A stretch of 64,000 nt of DNA from an uncultured SAR116 cluster alpha proteobacterium (GTDB taxonomy: Bacteria; Pseudomonadota; Alphaproteobacteria; Puniceispirillales; Puniceispirillaceae), in contig CACHEI010000005.1 in NCBI GenBank assembly GCA_902578815.1, forward strand, positions 1-64,000. The letters run 5' to 3'. The first letter of the stretch is position 1, and each line of letters opens with the position of its first letter. Of this stretch, positions 50,437-58,936 are shown piece by piece. Under the pieces are notes generated by a model. That model had not been told where the DNA came from. It saw only the letters and a program-made list of their open reading frames with translations, and ran no database searches. The position numbers and the translations under genes are program-made.

Positions 50437-51672
50437 TCAAAGCTTGGTGATGCTAAGATTAATCCTGACGATGTCTATTATACTATCGCTATTCAGGCAA
50501 GCTATATCTAAATGCGGAGCAGGATTGTAATCAAAGTCTTTTAAGGCCATGAAATAAATAATTTTCTTGTATTTTCTCAATAAAAGATTCACCCCATATG
50601 TTGTTGAGGTGCAGACTATAAATAAATCGTCTTTTTCTTCTGTTATTGCTTCTTGAACAGGGGTGCTTCTTGGGTGCATTTTAAGTTTGATGCTACTTTC
50701 ATCAAACCCGAGACTGTTGATTAACAATGCCCTAAATTTTTTGACCGCTAAAACACTTTCTTGACGAACCCCGCAACACAAGACAATTCGTTTGCAACGA
50801 TAGGTTAATGGTTCGATTGGAAAACCACCTCTTTTTAACTTTGGATTATTTTTTTCTTTATGGGTGTAGTCTTTTCTTAATCTTAGAGAGTTGTTTTCTA
50901 AAAAAAGGTTACGTCTATAAAAATTAAAAGTAGGGCTGTTGTGAACTTCTATTACTTCCTGCAATGTAGACTTAATTAATTTTTCTCTGGGAAATCCTTC
51001 AGATATATAGATTGGTATTGAATTTTTTCTCTTTAGATATCTTGCTAGTAGAAGCATTTGTAAGCAGTGGTTGTCGAATACCTCTTTTAAAAAATAAGTG
51101 TATTCTACTGGCTTCAAAAATCTGATATTTAAGAAAGACTTAGCAAACGTTAAAAGTGTAGAGTTCAATTCGCCAAGATACAACTCGGCAATTATTTTTG
51201 TTGGTATTTGGCCGTTTCTTATAATTATATCACTTGCGTCATACCTTGTATCAACTGGCGGACATTCGACATCAATATCTGTCTCTTTTGAAGAAAACTC
51301 AATTTCAACGTCTCTAACTCCGTAGCAGAGTCTTACGTATTTTTTTAAATGAAACTCACTTTTTTTCGGTAAAAGTTTTTTTAAGAAAAAAACTATGTAG
51401 AGCCGTACAAGGCGGATTATTGATTTTACGAATAATCCGAGGAAAAAAAAATGAGTTTGAATGTTCACTTCCGATTTATACAATTGTCTTTGCCACAGTC
51501 TGTCTCTTAACCATCCTGAAAGATTGAACTGATCGCCGATTGATTGCCACCGTTCCACAGTCTCATATTCGAAGATCAATGACTGCTTAAATTTCTTCAA
51601 TTTATTTTCAGATTGAAAAGCATAACCAGCAAGTTCTTCAAACTTATCTGTAAATATTAACTTCTTAGACAT
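50437..51672 (-). CDS. Protein of unknown function with sialyltransferase-like motifs (candidate GT-B transferase)
   Basis: A 411-residue basic protein with one hydrophobic stretch (about 73-95: FFFLGLFVKSIIRL, LYIVFFL), so probably membrane-associated. I do not recognise the family. Three short blocks recall bacterial sialyl/polysialyltransferases: ISEGFPREK (E-G block, about 222), KLKMHPRSTP (H-P block, about 330) and VCTSTTYGVN (S-S/T block, about 354), in the usual order and spacing. It is the first gene of the long minus-strand run and lies next to the nonulosonic-acid genes on the other strand. A transferase for the CMP-nonulosonate made nearby is a reasonable hypothesis, not a firm call. 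Confidence 0.5.
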   Translation of the reverse strand: MSKKLIFTDKFEELAGYAFQSENKLKKFKQSLIFEYETVERWQSIGDQFNLSGWLRDRLWQRQLYKSEVNIQTHFFFLGLFVKSIIRLVRLYIVFFLKKLLPKKSEFHLKKYVRLCYGVRDVEIEFSSKETDIDVECPPVDTRYDASDIIIRNGQIPTKIIAELYLGELNSTLLTFAKSFLNIRFLKPVEYTYFLKEVFDNHCLQMLLLARYLKRKNSIPIYISEGFPREKLIKSTLQEVIEVHNSPTFNFYRRNLFLENNSLRLRKDYTHKEKNNPKLKRGGFPIEPLTYRCKRIVLCCGVRQESVLAVKKFRALLINSLGFDESSIKLKMHPRSTPVQEAITEEKDDLFIVCTSTTYGVNLLLRKYKKIIYFMALKDFDYNPAPHLDIACLNSDSIIDIVRINLSITKL

Positions 51673-52665: not shown

Positions 52666-54909
52666 ATGTATTTTGAAAAAAATGTTGGGCGCTATTGTGT
52701 AAGTGAACAAATGTCGGTCTCAGCTTTTTTAAAGCACTTTGTGAAAGACAAACCAAGATTCTATTGCGTAGTAAATAATCAGCATGAGTTAGTCGGCGTT
52801 ATTTCGCTTGGAGACATTGCGCGTGCCACAGCTAAATCAATATCGGGTGAAAATTCCATATCGACTTTGATGAATAAAGAATTTCACGCAATAAACGATG
52901 GGGCATCACTATCAACTCTGAAGCATAATTTGGAGGAATATAGATTTGTACCTGTTGTTGATGAGTTGGGCAGATTAAAAATGCTTGTTCAGGGTTTGGC
53001 GGGCCAAAGAGAGTTCTACATTGGTAATCATTCTATTCAACGAAGCGGGGATTATCTATTGGTCGCGGAAATCGGTAACAACCATAATGGTTGTATCGAA
53101 AAAGCTTTTGAATTAATTCGGTCAGCCAAAAATAGTGGAGCACACATAGCAAAATTCCAAATGCGCGATATGTCTACCCTCTATGGCGATACTAGTGTAT
53201 CCCATGATTTATCAACGGAATATGTAATAAATCTTTTACAAAAAGTTTCTCTATCTGACGAAGATATGATCAGGTGCTTTGATTTTTGCAAAGAAGTTGG
53301 CATTACACCGCTGTGCACTCCTTTTGACCTGAATAGCCTTCAGACGCTCGAAAATTATGGGATGGAGGGCTATAAAGTTGCTTCTGCAGATTTGACTAAT
53401 CATGAATTGCTTGAGGCTTTAGTAAAAACAAACAAGCCACTAATCGTGTCTACTGGAATGTCCACTGATGGCGAGATTGATGAAGCCATCTCGTTGTTGG
53501 AGAGGCACTATGTCAACTATGTAATATGTCATGCTAACTCGACCTACCCTGCACCTTTTTCGGATGTTCACCTTAATTATATTGATAATCTCAAAAGTCG
53601 CACTTCTTCGGTAATTGGTTATTCAGGTCATGAGAGAGGCTGGCACATACCGCTTGGTGCTTTTACAAAAGGAGCCCAAGTCATCGAAAAGCATTTCACA
53701 TTAGATAAGACTTTAGAGGGAAACGATCATAAAGTTAGTTTATTACCATCTGAATTTTTGATGCTAAGCCAGGCTCTTGCAGACCTATCTGAGGCAATGG
53801 GAATTGGCTATAAGCGTCAAATCACACAGGGCGAAGCGACTAACAAAATTGCGTTATCTAAGTCAATTTTTTGCGCCAAACCGGTGGGTCGAGGTGAATT
53901 AATTAAAGATGAGAACATTGTTATTCGGTCCCCAGGAAATGGCTTGAGTCCTAGAATGAAAAGAGCTTTGGTGGGAAAAATTTCGAGCCGAGATATCGAC
54001 ATTGGCGAAGCATTTTTCCAAACTGATCTAGACGGCCATAAAGAAATAAAATCGTTGACGCTACCAAAACACTTCAAATGGTGCATCCCCGTTAGGCACC
54101 GCGATGTTTATAAATTGTATAACGTGTTTAAACCTCCAGCTATTGAATTTCATTTATCGTTCAAAGATCTGAAAATCAATGATAAAGATACATTGATAGA
54201 CCCTCTGAATACCGAAGTTATTATCCATTCTCCAGAACAGTTCGACGATGATTTTATTCTAGATTTATTCTCTGAGGACGTTACAACCACTCAAAAAACG
54301 ATATCACTTTTAGACGAGATCTTTAGAAAGGCTCGGAATATAAGCCAACTTTTAGGGTACAAGGGTTATCCAAAGGTTGTTGTCAATTGTGGTGGTCATA
54401 CGCATGACGCTTTTTTATCACAATACGAGGCAGAGCGCAGAGTTGATAATTTTATAAAAAACATTCAAAAAGTTGACTTGTCGGACTGCCGCTTTTTGGC
54501 ACAGACTATGCCACCATACCCGTGGCATTTTGGCGGTCAGTCTTTTCACAACCAATTTACTAGCTCAGATAATATTCTGTCAATCTTGTCGAAATCTCAA
54601 CAGCCGCTCGAATTATGTTTGGATATCTCCCATTCTTACATGTGGTGCAATTATTCAAATGAAAATTTTGAAAAATTTATTGAAAAAATAGCACCACACG
54701 TTTCACACATACACATCTCCGACGCGGCTGGGGAGTCTGAAGAAGGCATGCAGGTGGGTGAAGGGACTCTCGATTTTGGAATGATTAGAAAGGCTTTTAA
54801 CGCTCTTCCAGCCGACGTAACTTTGTTACCGGAGATCTGGCAAGGGCACGATAACTTGGGTGACGGCTTTAGGATAGCGTTGGAAAGATTAAACAAATTT
54901 GGATATTAA
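52666..54909 (+). CDS. Nonulosonic acid synthase fusion: CBS pair + NeuB + SAF + C-terminal TIM-barrel isomerase-like domain
   Basis: A 747-residue multidomain protein. Residues about 1-115 form a CBS pair (VVNNQHELVGVISLGDIARA, FVPVVDELGRLKMLV). About 125-365 is the NeuB barrel with VAEIGNNHNG, HIAKFQMRDM, TPFDLNSLQTL, STGMSTDGEIDEAI, HANSTYPAPFSDVHL and EKHFTLDKTLEGNDHK. About 395-465 is the SAF/antifreeze-like domain (SIFCAKPVGRGELIKDENI). About 470-747 resembles AP-endonuclease-2/xylose-isomerase-type barrels with possible metal ligands in VIIHSPEQ, CLDISHSYMW, SHIHISDAAG and LLPEIWQGH. NeuB enzymes condense a hexosamine-like sugar with PEP to a nonulosonic acid. CBS may sense a nucleotide; the last barrel may isomerise or epimerise the substrate. 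NeuA follows after 3 bases. A GAGGT ribosome site precedes the ATG. Confidence 0.88.
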   Translation: MYFEKNVGRYCVSEQMSVSAFLKHFVKDKPRFYCVVNNQHELVGVISLGDIARATAKSISGENSISTLMNKEFHAINDGASLSTLKHNLEEYRFVPVVDELGRLKMLVQGLAGQREFYIGNHSIQRSGDYLLVAEIGNNHNGCIEKAFELIRSAKNSGAHIAKFQMRDMSTLYGDTSVSHDLSTEYVINLLQKVSLSDEDMIRCFDFCKEVGITPLCTPFDLNSLQTLENYGMEGYKVASADLTNHELLEALVKTNKPLIVSTGMSTDGEIDEAISLLERHYVNYVICHANSTYPAPFSDVHLNYIDNLKSRTSSVIGYSGHERGWHIPLGAFTKGAQVIEKHFTLDKTLEGNDHKVSLLPSEFLMLSQALADLSEAMGIGYKRQITQGEATNKIALSKSIFCAKPVGRGELIKDENIVIRSPGNGLSPRMKRALVGKISSRDIDIGEAFFQTDLDGHKEIKSLTLPKHFKWCIPVRHRDVYKLYNVFKPPAIEFHLSFKDLKINDKDTLIDPLNTEVIIHSPEQFDDDFILDLFSEDVTTTQKTISLLDEIFRKARNISQLLGYKGYPKVVVNCGGHTHDAFLSQYEAERRVDNFIKNIQKVDLSDCRFLAQTMPPYPWHFGGQSFHNQFTSSDNILSILSKSQQPLELCLDISHSYMWCNYSNENFEKFIEKIAPHVSHIHISDAAGESEEGMQVGEGTLDFGMIRKAFNALPADVTLLPEIWQGHDNLGDGFRIALERLNKFGY

Positions 54910-54912
54910 AGG

Positions 54913-55608
54913 ATGATAACAGCAATAATCCCTGCAAGATCAGGATCAAAACGACTACAGGGCAAAAACATTAAAAATCTGTCTGGTAGACCGTTGATGT
55001 TTTACACTATTGATGCTGTTCTGGGTCATGAAGAGATAAATAGCGTTATCTTAACCACTGACTCAGAAAAATATATTGACCTGGCTAAAGAAACATACGG
55101 TGACACTATTTGTTACGAGTGCCGACCTCCAGAATATGCTAATGACACAGCCAAAGTCTATGATGAAATCAAACGTTTGGTAAAAACCGGGGTTGTAAAA
55201 ACACCATGGTATATCCAGTGCTTACCTACGTGCCCTCTACGAGATCACAAAGTTGTTAGATCCTTACTCGACCAGTGGAAACTTGATTGGCGCCCTATCT
55301 TTTCCGCTGTGGCGTATGAATTTGCTACTCAATTCGCTTTTAATTTGTCTGCAAATGGACGGGGGTGGAAGGCGATTTCAGAACAATCACCAATGATCAC
55401 CGGTAACACTAGATCTCAGGATATCCCAAACACCTATCGGCCCAACGGTGCTATGTACCTCCAACATGTTGACAACATCGAAAATAAGACACTTTATACA
55501 TTCGCTGATGTGTTTTTAATGACGAGGGAAGAATCAATAGATGTGGACACCAATTTAGATTTTTTAATTTGTGAACAATTACTTGCGAATAGAAAAACCA
55601 ATGAATAA
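54913..55608 (+). CDS. neuA: CMP-nonulosonate (acylneuraminate) cytidylyltransferase
   Basis: This 231-residue cytoplasmic enzyme activates a nonulosonic acid with CTP. The N-terminal block AIIPARSGSKRLQGKNIKNL, VILTTDSEKYI, the CRPPEYANDTAKVYDEI region, IQCLPTCPLRDHKVV and the sugar-binding YRPNGAMYLQHVD match NeuA/PseF/LegF-type enzymes. Which nonulosonate it accepts is not determinable. It starts 3 bases after the NeuB fusion and overlaps the next gene by 8 bases, so the three form one operon. Confidence 0.92.
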   Translation: MITAIIPARSGSKRLQGKNIKNLSGRPLMFYTIDAVLGHEEINSVILTTDSEKYIDLAKETYGDTICYECRPPEYANDTAKVYDEIKRLVKTGVVKTPWYIQCLPTCPLRDHKVVRSLLDQWKLDWRPIFSAVAYEFATQFAFNLSANGRGWKAISEQSPMITGNTRSQDIPNTYRPNGAMYLQHVDNIENKTLYTFADVFLMTREESIDVDTNLDFLICEQLLANRKTNE

Positions 55609-56563
55609 AAACATCTCAGGGTTGACGGTGAGCATTCCCCTTTTTTTTAACAAGGATGAATCAATCGATTATACGGTTTTGAGTCGATATATCGCGGATT
55701 TGGGAACACAGAATCGTATTACAGCTATTTACAGCATGGCATATAACACTCGTTACAGGATGTTAAATGCTACTGAGGTTCTTGAGGTAAATAAAGAAAT
55801 CTTAAGTTTAGCCCACAAACACAAGCTGAACTGCTTTGTCGGGCATCCATATGTATTCAATCGACGGAGCTTAGAAGATTATTTGATAGAAATTAAAAGG
55901 TACAATCCTGCCGGCATTTCAATGTTGTATCCTGAGAGATATTTTGGGATCGATGATCCAATTCTAGAGTTCTTGTCTATTCCTTCAAAGTTTGGACTGA
56001 AGGTAATACTACATGAAATGAAATTGGTTTCTGGTCTAAATGGAGAGTTAATTAATTGGCCAGAAAATCTGCTTAGGAAAGCTATTCAATTGGAGTCAGT
56101 TATTGGGGTTAAGGAAGACTCAAAAGATGACTCGATAGCTCAACTCGTTTTGGATGAATGTAATAAAAAAGGAGTGACTTGTATTCTTGCAGGCGGTGGA
56201 AAGCGTCGAGCCCTTAAGTTTGTCGGTAAAGGATTAAAGACTTGGTTAAATGGGTCTACTATGTTTTATCCCAAAGTCATTGACATCATTTACGATGCTA
56301 TCACGACTAACCAATCAGAAATTGTTGCATTTTTTATTGAAAATGTAGAAAAGCCATTTTTTGAAAAAGTTGTGGAGAAACATGGGTGGCATCTGGCACA
56401 TAAGACCGCATTGGAGTACTTTGGTTATGGAAAAAGGTATGAACGTTTCCCCCATCCGATTTTATCTGACATTCGTCATAGTGAATTAAAAGTCATCTTC
56501 GAAGACATTAAATCGGCCTTGGAAGAGTTGATTGGGAATGATGCAAGAGGTTCTTATAAATAA
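55601..56563 (+). CDS. DapA/NanA-fold (DHDPS/NAL) protein with diverged active site
   Basis: A 320-residue TIM-barrel protein. The Schiff-base lysine is kept in IGVKEDSKDD (about 165). Two normal active-site parts are changed: the G-[ST]-T-G-E keto-acid loop is replaced by YSMAYNTRYRML (about 44-55), and the conserved Tyr of the Y-N-x-P strand is absent (ILHEMKLVSG, about 134-143). So ordinary dihydrodipicolinate or N-acetylneuraminate-lyase chemistry is doubtful; it may use a different acceptor, or act as a decarboxylase or dehydratase in nonulosonate tailoring. The ATG 55601 overlaps neuA by 8 bases; the longer open frame is rejected. It is the third gene of the nonulosonate operon. Confidence 0.8.
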   Translation: MNKNISGLTVSIPLFFNKDESIDYTVLSRYIADLGTQNRITAIYSMAYNTRYRMLNATEVLEVNKEILSLAHKHKLNCFVGHPYVFNRRSLEDYLIEIKRYNPAGISMLYPERYFGIDDPILEFLSIPSKFGLKVILHEMKLVSGLNGELINWPENLLRKAIQLESVIGVKEDSKDDSIAQLVLDECNKKGVTCILAGGGKRRALKFVGKGLKTWLNGSTMFYPKVIDIIYDAITTNQSEIVAFFIENVEKPFFEKVVEKHGWHLAHKTALEYFGYGKRYERFPHPILSDIRHSELKVIFEDIKSALEELIGNDARGSYK

Positions 56564-56681
56564 CGGTCTAGTTCCGCAGTGAGAAACAAAAATGCTGTCT
56601 TAACTTTGCAGAATAAACAAATTGATGACACGGTAGATACCGATCCGATTAACAAGACGTCTCTTACCCAGGTGAATGGCT

Positions 56682-57434
56682 ATGAGCAAAACAGACAAAA
56701 ATATCGAAAAAACTCGAAATACAAAAAGTCAATTAGATTGGTATAAACGGCGCGATAGTTTTCTTAATAATGTCGGGGTTACAAATATTGCGAATAATTT
56801 TAGTGTTTTTTCTACGCGGCAAAAAATTACTAGATTTGTTGAAACCTTGAGATATTGGGAGTTGATCAAGAATGTACCTGGCAATATCATCGAGTGCGGC
56901 GTAGCTGGTGGTGATTTTTTGTTTGCAATGGCGCATTTTAGCTCGATTTACGAGCCTCATCATTATACAAGAAAAATCGTTGGTTTTGATACATTTAAAG
57001 GATTTATGGAGCCTTCAAATGAAGATCAGTCTTCGGGGGCAAAACATCTGAAAGAGGGTGGATTGCACTACGATAGCTATCAGTATCTTTCTGATGCTAT
57101 AAAATTTTATGATGAAAATCGGATGATTGGAAATGTATCGAAAATAAGTCTTTTTAAAGGGGATATTGCGGATACCTTGCCTAGGTACCTGACTGATCAC
57201 CCGTCAGCAGTTATCGGACTACTCCACCTTGATTTAGATTTATATGCCCCAACTAAAGCTGTTTTGCAACTCGCTCTTGAACGAATGCCTAAAGGCGCAA
57301 TCGTAATTTTTGACGAAATTAACCATGATGATTACCCCGGCGAAACAATAGCAGTGATGGAAGAAATTGGACTCAAAAATATTCATTTGGAGAGGGTCTA
57401 CGAAGCATCAATGGCAGCGTATTGGAGGGTGTAA
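56682..57434 (+). CDS. TylF/MycF-type sugar O-methyltransferase
   Basis: This 250-residue Mg2+- and SAM-dependent O-methyltransferase contains VPGNIIECGVAGGDFLFAMA (SAM site, about 65-84), IVGFDTFKGFMEP, and LLHLDLDLYAPTKAVLQLAL with the D-x-D metal motif followed by VIFDEINHDDYPGE. TylF/MycF enzymes methylate hydroxyls of sugar residues. I take ATG 56682 because the AGGTGA ribosome site is 6-8 bases upstream; ATG 56676 is too close to it. Its TAA and the next ATG overlap (TAATG). A second homologue lies 800 bases downstream, so two positions may be methylated. Confidence 0.87.
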   Translation: MSKTDKNIEKTRNTKSQLDWYKRRDSFLNNVGVTNIANNFSVFSTRQKITRFVETLRYWELIKNVPGNIIECGVAGGDFLFAMAHFSSIYEPHHYTRKIVGFDTFKGFMEPSNEDQSSGAKHLKEGGLHYDSYQYLSDAIKFYDENRMIGNVSKISLFKGDIADTLPRYLTDHPSAVIGLLHLDLDLYAPTKAVLQLALERMPKGAIVIFDEINHDDYPGETIAVMEEIGLKNIHLERVYEASMAAYWRV

Positions 57435-58135
57435 TGAGGGATTTGTTTATTATCAAGAAATTGGATGACATCAGGCCGATAGAGGATTTCCAGAGTTTTG
57501 TTTTCAGTTTGCTGAAGACAAATTCACACTCTGCTTTTTCCCAAGAACTGATAAAGCGCCATGAATCAGATCAGTCTTCCGCAGGACGTCTCCAAGATGA
57601 AATTTCAAACTCTCAAGAATTCAAAAAGTTAGTCAATGATAAGCGTTTTATATCATTTGCTGCAGAACTAATGAGCATCAGCGAAGACGACGTTATGATT
57701 GTCTATCCACATTTCAGAATTGACTTACCGTCGCGTTTTGCGGCCGATAAAAAGAAGATATCTTTACCGTGGCATCAGGAGGCAGGTTATTATATCGACA
57801 AAGGTGATTGCACCCCAGACAGTATTGTAATGTCGATGTACTTGCATGATTGTGAGGAGCACGAAGGAGCGTTGCACATGAGTTCCAGTGCACATTCTCG
57901 CTTGCTTGAACATTCAAAAAAATTCATGGATCCCGATCGGGAGAAATTTTTGCGTGCTGAATGTGAAGAGCCTGAAGACTACGTTGTTGCAGAATCTGAG
58001 TTGGGACAAGTTGTGGCTTTTGATTTCAAACGACCGCATCGTAGTGGAGTCAACAATTCACCTAAGGTGCGCTTGACTCTCTTGCTTCGCGCAACTTCGG
58101 CATCAGAACTCGATGCATTTGTCAAGTTAAACTGA
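57434..58135 (+). CDS. PhyH-like Fe(II)/2-oxoglutarate dioxygenase
   Basis: A 233-residue phytanoyl-CoA-hydroxylase-like enzyme. The facial triad would be His in LPWHQEAGYYIDKG, an acidic residue two further on (Glu instead of the usual Asp, so H-x-E) and the distal His in FKRPHRSGVNNSPKVRLTLL, whose R (SPKVRLTL) binds 2-oxoglutarate. The fold core includes VMSMYLHDCEEHEGALHM. It starts in the TAATG overlap with the methyltransferase gene, with a GGAGGG ribosome site, and is bracketed by two TylF genes. It likely hydroxylates the sugar or nonulosonate to make a methyl acceptor, which is an inference from order. Confidence 0.85.
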   Translation: MRDLFIIKKLDDIRPIEDFQSFVFSLLKTNSHSAFSQELIKRHESDQSSAGRLQDEISNSQEFKKLVNDKRFISFAAELMSISEDDVMIVYPHFRIDLPSRFAADKKKISLPWHQEAGYYIDKGDCTPDSIVMSMYLHDCEEHEGALHMSSSAHSRLLEHSKKFMDPDREKFLRAECEEPEDYVVAESELGQVVAFDFKRPHRSGVNNSPKVRLTLLLRATSASELDAFVKLN

Positions 58136-58136
58136 G

Positions 58137-58235
58137 ATGAGCAAACAGATTGGTTTAACCACAAAATCCCAATACGATTTCTCAAGAAACCTTCGGATTG
58201 CGTGGAAATGGAATGCTAATGTCTTGTTTCGATGA
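58137..58235 (+). CDS. Possible 32-residue small protein between PhyH and TylF genes
   Basis: ATG 58137 opens 2 bases after the PhyH stop and the frame ends in TGA 58233-58235, which overlaps the next gene's ATG as ATGA. The peptide begins MSKQIGLTTKSQYDF and has a basic aromatic end (NLRIAWKWNANVLFR). No strong ribosome site is present and no family is known. The close fit into the gap and the ATGA coupling are what support it; it may also be chance, since AT-rich gaps of this size often contain such frames. Confidence 0.35.
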   Translation: MSKQIGLTTKSQYDFSRNLRIAWKWNANVLFR

Positions 58236-58936
58236 TTGGTGTGTTAAGGGATGAGAAAAAAGTGACAGACACTTTAAGAAATTTGAACCGTGAGAATGTT
58301 TGGGATTATGAGAATGCTTTTTATTGGTTCTCTTCAAAGTCTCGTATTAATAAAATGTTGGCACATTATGAGATTTATAAAACAATAATAGATGTTCCTG
58401 GTCATATAATTGAGTGTGGAGTTTATAAAGGTGCTTCACTCGTCAGATTTGCTACCTTTAGAGATCTGTTGGAAAATGACTTCTCTAGAAAGATTATAGG
58501 TTTTGATGCATTTGGTGCATTCCCAACAAATAATTTGAAAATAGATAATGATTTAAAGTTCATCAAAAAATTTGAAAATGCTGCCGGTCATGGGCTTGAA
58601 AAAGAAGAAATATTCGACATTCTTGCAGCAAAGGGCTTCGAGAACGTTACTTTAGTCAAGGGAGACGTTTTTGATACACTCTCTTTATACCTCGAAGACA
58701 ACCCTGAAACACGTATTGCCCTACTACATCTGGATATGGATACTAAAGAACCAACTGATTATGCGCTTGAGTTGTTGTACAACAGAGTAGTTCCTGGAGG
58801 GGTAATAATGTTTGATGATTACAACGCTGTTAGTGGTGAAACGATATCCGCGGATAATTTTGCAACTCTTCACAAACTAAGGCTTGAGAAGCTCCCTTTT
58901 TACAATGTGCCAGCATTTATAAGAAAGCCTCTATGA
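58232..58936 (+). CDS. TylF/MycF-type sugar O-methyltransferase (second copy)
   Basis: This 234-residue homologue of the gene at 56682 has the SAM site VPGHIIECGVYKGASLVRFA (about 52-71), IIGFDAFGAFPTNN, LLHLDMDTKEPTDYALELL with the D-x-D-type metal motif and VIMFDDYNAVSGE. It is diverged from the first copy, so the two probably differ in position or acceptor. The ATG 58232 lies in an ATGA overlap; an internal GTG (GTG ACA GAC) behind an AAGGGA could also serve as start, dropping about ten residues. It is the last gene of the plus-strand nonulosonate unit and converges with the dehydrogenase gene. Confidence 0.85.
   Translation: MIGVLRDEKKVTDTLRNLNRENVWDYENAFYWFSSKSRINKMLAHYEIYKTIIDVPGHIIECGVYKGASLVRFATFRDLLENDFSRKIIGFDAFGAFPTNNLKIDNDLKFIKKFENAAGHGLEKEEIFDILAAKGFENVTLVKGDVFDTLSLYLEDNPETRIALLHLDMDTKEPTDYALELLYNRVVPGGVIMFDDYNAVSGETISADNFATLHKLRLEKLPFYNVPAFIRKPL

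Follow-up and report, generated by a model that had tools for sequence, protein, structure and literature searches.

Known pathways related to the locus

The pathways for N-acetylneuraminic acid (Neu5Ac), legionaminic acid (Leg) and pseudaminic acid (Pse) share a phosphoenolpyruvate (PEP)-condensing synthase of the NeuB family (NeuB, LegI, PseI) and a cytidine monophosphate (CMP)-sugar synthetase (NeuA, LegF, PseF). The same two families are encoded by a run of six plus-strand genes (52666-58936) in a 64,000-nucleotide stretch of DNA from an uncultured SAR116 cluster alphaproteobacterium (contig CACHEI010000005.1, positions 1 to 64,000), referred to below as the window. The run encodes a fused NeuB synthase, NeuA, a protein of the DapA/NanA fold, two TylF-family O-methyltransferases and a PhyH-family dioxygenase. 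It is proposed to be a pathway for a modified, O-methylated and possibly hydroxylated, CMP-activated nonulosonate of the Kdn (2-keto-3-deoxynononic acid) type, with a rough probability of 0.55. Compared with the Neu5Ac, Leg and Pse pathways, the synthase has lost Arg314 and is fused to an isomerase-fold domain, N-acyl precursor genes are absent from the unit and there is an extra DapA-fold protein.

A fused synthase has been described in the capsule locus of Serratia marcescens UMH9, which carries neuA and neuB for sialic acid (PMC9000132). The neuB gene is a 2241-bp open reading frame coding for NeuB plus a COG1082 isomerase/epimerase domain. Sialic acid production depends on this gene, and the Kdn to Neu5Ac ratio in the polysaccharide is about 20:1 (PMC9000132). 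The KL1/KL2 NeuB of S. marcescens (~746 aa) and the window fusion (747 aa) are both accompanied by NeuA and have the same architecture, as judged from the published description and not from sequence. For the KL1/KL2 sugar, only neuA and neuB are described, with no DapA-like, TylF or PhyH gene reported (PMC9000132).

Two further precedents concern the modifications. A polysaccharide of Sinorhizobium fredii is reported to contain 5-O-methyl-Kdn (Gil-Serrano 1998, as cited in PMC9000132), which by that secondary account is a bacterial O-methylated nonulosonate lacking an N-acyl group, like the proposed product. KdoO is a 2-oxoglutarate dioxygenase that 3-hydroxylates 3-deoxy-D-manno-octulosonic acid (Kdo) (PMC8533242). 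The window PhyH is likened to it by reaction, the Fe(II)/2-oxoglutarate-dependent hydroxylation of a 3-deoxy-ulosonic acid, and not by homology; KdoO differs in working on Kdo during lipopolysaccharide core assembly. Fusion of NeuB to an isomerase in connection with Kdn, O-methyl-Kdn and the hydroxylation of Kdo by a dioxygenase are therefore already known.

In the literature searched, no description was found of the DapA-like protein with its type of NeuA, or of the gene combination in the window, and this two-gene module appears undescribed there. The initial annotation had considered the whole pathway possibly undescribed; this appears to hold for the module and not for the synthase fusion or for O-methylated Kdn. 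The Shewanella sfmABCDE genes were rejected as a match, their gene set being different, and a term search of a paper on a Moritella/Vibrionaceae cluster gave no mention of a fusion or an isomerase.

Organization of the six-gene unit

All six open reading frames are intact, and opposite-strand genes flank the run on both sides. The first and second genes are separated by 3 bp and the second and third overlap by 8 bp; after a gap of 112 bp, the fourth and fifth overlap by 1 bp, and a further 96 bp precede the sixth. Genes 1-3 and genes 4-5 are thus translationally tight groups, and no terminator-like sites were found in the gaps between the six genes. The reading frames together with Pfam, profile and model evidence agree with the initial annotation of a single plus-strand unit with tight spacing at most joints.

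The fused synthase

The first gene (52666..54909, plus strand) encodes a 747-aa protein in which Pfam placed CBS (residues 11-54), NeuB (150-381), SAF (403-455) and AP_endonuc_2 (493-741) domains. Together with the residue alignment and a model of the C-terminal domain, this makes it a candidate Kdn-type synthase. When aligned with the Neisseria enzyme (NmNeuB), residues K53, Q55, K129, S132, S154, Y186, H215, H236 and D247 were all present, including the six PEP and metal residues of Neu5Ac synthases (K53, K129, S154, H215, H236 and D247). However, R314 of the SAF domain, which also characterizes Neu5Ac synthases, was replaced by Ser. The fusion scored 275.6 bits against the NeuB_NnaB model TIGR03569 (cut-off 399.65) and 202.4 bits against the PseI model TIGR03586 (cut-off 340.25), reaching neither cut-off.

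In Neisseria NeuB, Arg314 positions N-acetylmannosamine via its N-acetyl group; the R314A variant is inactive while R314K is active (PMC6795526). The corresponding position was S, A, G or T in 23/23 fused synthases, six of them from genomes lacking the DapA-like gene, whereas 40 readable unfused control synthases had R (38) or K (2); the difference was compared by Fisher test. Loss of Arg314 in the fused synthases therefore points to a substrate without an N-acyl group.

The C-terminal domain was modelled with a pLDDT (predicted local distance difference test) score of 85 and best matched ketose 3-epimerases (2zvr: Z 22.5, root-mean-square deviation 3.0 over 239 residues). The epimerase metal ligands are E-D-H-E; D193, H223 and E263 are kept in the fused domain and the first Glu is Gln, as it is in most fused TIM-barrel copies. 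One synthase (L026:8463-9989) carries, in place of the TIM barrel, a cupin with a D-lyxose-isomerase-like match, and this NeuB-cupin fusion likewise adjoins NeuA and a gene for the DapA-like protein. The cupin is a possible non-homologous replacement of the TIM barrel, a swap that hints at a sugar-isomerase role for the fused domain.

The HEM protein

The third gene (55601..56563, plus strand) encodes a 320-aa protein that had no match in Pfam or NCBIfam. A profile of its 25-member family matched dihydrodipicolinate synthase (DHDPS) and N-acetylneuraminate lyase chains (best E 2e-23), and an AlphaFold2 model (mean pLDDT 89) matched NanA/DHDPS structures with Z of ~28; by profile and model alike, the predicted fold is that of DapA/NanA. 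The TIM barrel and the position of the Schiff-base Lys are common to the lyase and DHDPS, while the active-site motifs and the neighbouring genes differ. The Lys (GVKED) is kept in the window protein. The catalytic-Tyr motif, YNxP...(R/L)(T/S)G, is replaced by HEMKLVSG, with Tyr changed to His (HEM(P/K)xxSG in the family, hence 'HEM' protein), and the carboxylate loop G(S/T)TGE by YNTRY (YN(S/T)RY/F in nearly all members). Residues R51, H138, M140, K171, E172, W263 and H264 are invariant in the 25-member alignment. Another DapA-family protein of the same genome keeps the canonical GSTGE, YNYPHRTG and GIKESS.

The rebuilt active site that had been noted initially was therefore confirmed. Judged by its residues, the HEM protein would be Lys-dependent in principle, yet it is not predicted to be an ordinary lyase or DHDPS. 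Single-protein searches of plasmids, phages and viral contigs found no HEM protein.

Recurrence of the core and co-variation of NeuA

When 84,980 species genomes were scanned with a HEM profile built from three sequences, 24 further loci were identified; they come from alpha- and gammaproteobacteria, Methylophilales, Marinimicrobia, SAR324, Verrucomicrobiales and Bacteroidia, and most are marine. A three-row profile run against 398 genomes from the phylum picked up chiefly ordinary DapA-family proteins, and this search was left out of the counts. NeuA adjoins the HEM gene in 23 of the 24 loci and NeuB is near it in 21, with the contig ending before NeuB in two more. In one of these two (genome G360, locus L011), the NeuB fusion was found on another contig (L071), beside the remaining half of a dehydratase gene of the same type. 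One locus (L029) is an outlier without NeuA and NeuB. The core of NeuB fusion, NeuA and HEM gene was present in ~20 genomes, covering at least six lineages of marine bacteria, and so is not private to the genome of the window. What is conserved is this three-gene core; the initial annotation had taken all six genes as the set, but TylF and PhyH are accessory, and the PhyH found at one locus differs from that at another.

Three layouts were distinguished. Layout a has a 746-765-aa fusion with CBS (the window, L006, L007, L008, L015, L023 and L025). In layout b, the fusion is 605-644 aa long and lacks CBS, and a GMD-like dehydratase usually accompanies it. Layout c has separate genes for NeuB and a TIM barrel, with a LegC-like aminotransferase and an acetyltransferase (L027 and L028). 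The two layout c loci each have two NeuB genes, one with Arg314 beside the LegC-like aminotransferase and acetyltransferase genes and the other without Arg314 beside the HEM gene and NeuA, and two nonulosonates are possibly produced there side by side.

The second gene of the window (54913..55608, plus strand) encodes a 231-aa NeuA/PseF-like CMP-sugar synthetase (CTP_transf_3, 3.9e-20). It scored 106.9 bits against the PseF model TIGR03584 (cut-off 205.7) and matched KdsB models weakly. Between layouts a and b, which both have the HEM gene, mean identity was 29% for the synthase and 47% for NeuA. In contrast, when layout a was compared with seven fusion loci lacking the HEM gene, identity was 46% for the synthase and only ~28% for NeuA. 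By these identities, the type of NeuA tracks the HEM gene instead of the synthase, which is most simply read as the HEM protein modifying the free sugar ahead of its CMP activation. The initial annotation had the aldolase-like protein tailor the nonulosonate; it probably does alter the sugar, at a step that probably precedes activation.

NeuB-TIM-barrel fusions were also seen in L068-L074 and L117 (plasmid pT173e of Ensifer canadensis), with NeuA in nearly all and a GMD-like gene in several; the HEM gene is absent from all except L071. These loci are assigned to a broader Kdn-type family that reaches rhizobia.

A 430-580-aa protein family with weak Pfam matches at most (glycosyltransferase-B-like) adjoins the core in most related loci (for example L005:2172-3758, L012:4737-6173 and L028:12269-13699) and is a candidate transferase for the sugar. 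Neither the window nor its contig extension yielded an orthologue. The weak polysialyltransferase-like gene at 50437-51672 was rejected as such by profile comparison.

Proposed pathway

The recurrence of the core and the loss of Arg314 support the earlier proposal that the genes make up a single pathway to an activated sugar of the nonulosonate type, distinct from the known sets for Neu, Leg and Pse. The product is probably none of these three, because Arg314 is lost in the fused synthases and a Serratia fusion whose published architecture matches is needed for Kdn. It would probably lack a 5-N-acyl group and be Kdn-like. The nonulosonate model was therefore retained, with the Neu/Leg/Pse frame giving way to a Kdn-type one.

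In this scheme, the fused TIM barrel would supply or edit the aldose, probably forming a mannose-type sugar from a ketose, which would explain why a two-gene locus suffices in Serratia. The NeuB part would condense the aldose with PEP, and the HEM protein would modify the free 2-keto-3-deoxy acid via a Lys Schiff base, most naturally by epimerization or dehydration at C4. A NeuA specialized for the altered sugar would then form the CMP derivative. The two TylF proteins and PhyH are presumed to O-methylate and hydroxylate the sugar, at sites and in an order that are likewise presumed; both modifications of the nonulosonate are plausible. The finished sugar would enter a surface polysaccharide, for which the island around the six genes codes.

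If correct, the scheme would add a branch of nonulosonic acids beyond Neu, Leg and Pse and provide a genetic means of finding sialic-acid-like sugars of marine polysaccharides that are O-methylated and lack an N-acyl group. The HEM gene beside its own NeuA type serves as a marker that recurs in several phyla, and its product may bring a new reaction to the lyase/DHDPS superfamily. A more specific version, held tentatively and at rather less than even odds, is that the HEM protein is a new enzyme activity, a Schiff-base epimerase or dehydratase turning Kdn, or a related 3-deoxy-ulosonate, into an undescribed sugar with its own NeuA subfamily; surface glycans of marine bacteria would commonly contain this class of sugar, with methyl and hydroxyl groups added to it in some strains.

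Accessory genes and alternative explanations

The two TylF-family O-methyltransferases, of 252 aa (56676..57434, plus strand; PF05711 1.8e-11) and 234 aa (58232..58936, plus strand; PF05711 2.9e-20), scored 44.2 and 73.1 bits against a cut-off of 23. As is typical of TylF, the metal-binding Asp motif HLDLD/HLDMD is present (HLDLDLY in the first). The second is 41-43% identical to the TylF of L008, L009 and L024, and its type adjoins NeuA/NeuB in L008 and L024. Between them lies the putative PhyH-family Fe(II)/2-oxoglutarate dioxygenase (57434..58135, plus strand; likely start the ATG at 57434; PF05721 4.6e-8), with 34 bits against a cut-off of 22. Compared with the HxD...H iron site and distal Arg usual in the family, its pattern WHQE...H...R contains HQE (Asp to Glu), where the PhyH of other loci has HxD.

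By profile search, PhyH was found in 12/24 HEM loci and 2/39 ordinary NeuB loci (Fisher p 6e-5), and TylF in 6/24 and 2/39 (p 0.03), the 39 controls being of the window's class only and the HEM loci not phylogenetically independent. At Pfam E<=1e-5, coordinate matching placed PhyH in 8/24 HEM loci. TylF and/or PhyH lay within ~10 kb of the core in 14/24, so the two are not consistently found apart from NeuA/NeuB; both were strongly matched in three loci besides the window (L006, L008 and L024), and L027 gave a short weak TylF match. Two of the HEM loci belong to culturable strains, L008 to Bowmanella dokdonensis JCM 30855, where NeuB fusion, HEM gene, NeuA, TylF and PhyH follow one another, and L015 to Marinomonas colpomeniae SM2066. 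On this distribution, TylF and PhyH appear to be recurrent accessories and not fixed parts.

Several points weigh against the proposed pathway. The TylF and PhyH genes are non-orthologous across loci, with differing PhyH sequences; half of the HEM loci have no PhyH and most have no TylF. The profiles behind the enrichment were built partly from the loci tested, with controls from a single class. The GMD-like dehydratase of layout b is absent from the window, so the layout b sugar may differ. Gln in place of the first metal Glu of the epimerases means that the activity of the fused TIM barrel may differ as well, and the likeness to Serratia comes from a description.

The substrates of TylF and PhyH could instead be other sugars within the polysaccharide. 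The core would then make an unusual nonulosonate, with the six genes being mere neighbours in a capsule/O-antigen island. This is the most serious competitor and has a substantial minority chance. It fits the accessory, non-orthologous nature of the two families, the many other sugar genes in the island (CDP-glucose genes, WecB, a sulfotransferase and further methyltransferases) and the presence of TylF in two of the 39 ordinary NeuB loci. However, PhyH is commoner beside the core than in ordinary NeuB loci, TylF or PhyH directly adjoins NeuA/NeuB in several loci (for example L008, L015, L018, L019 and L024), and the six window genes form one same-strand run bounded by opposite-strand genes.

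That the HEM protein works as a conventional pyruvate aldolase/lyase, supplying an intermediate or degrading surplus nonulosonate in salvage, is unlikely. Its NanA/DHDPS fold, the kept Schiff-base Lys and the N-acetylneuraminate lyases among its top structural matches are what such an enzyme would have. The catalytic Tyr is nevertheless His in all members and G(S/T)TGE is replaced in nearly all; a lyase within the operon of the synthase would reverse the synthase reaction, and NeuA co-varies with the HEM protein.

Slightly less likely again is an octulosonate, or a product of another chain length, with the fusion acting as KdsD plus KdsA on a pentose or other sugar. The Kdo route uses an isomerase with CBS domains, a PEP-condensing synthase and a CMP synthetase. 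The domain logic of the fusion resembles this route and the window NeuA weakly matches KdsB models, but the synthase is of the NeuB/PseI type and not KdsA, and the Serratia fusion is tied to a nine-carbon product (PMC9000132).

A conventional Neu, Leg or Pse pathway to which decorations have been added is improbable: NeuB and NeuA families are present in the unit, and in L027 and L028 the HEM gene has a LegC-like aminotransferase, a GNAT protein and a second NeuB as neighbours, yet the NeuB_NnaB, PseI and PseF cut-offs were not reached, Arg314 is lost, and neither a hydrolysing NeuC nor a PseB/PseG/LegB-type set was found among the nearby window genes.

Genomic surroundings

The source genome is 2.07 Mb and 70% complete. 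The six genes lie in a low-GC polysaccharide island at 22.5-64 kb of the window, with a GC content of 37% compared with 55% over the first 22 kb. The island also encodes two AsnB-like proteins and a heparinase II/III-like protein. At its far end (63.1-64.5 kb; L115:3100-4500), a second pair of TylF-like and PhyH-like genes was seen, each interrupted by frame changes or assembly errors; this PhyH-like gene is like the type of L006 and L008. On another contig of the same genome, there is an ordinary second NeuB with Arg314 (G000:C14:5570-6298; L103).

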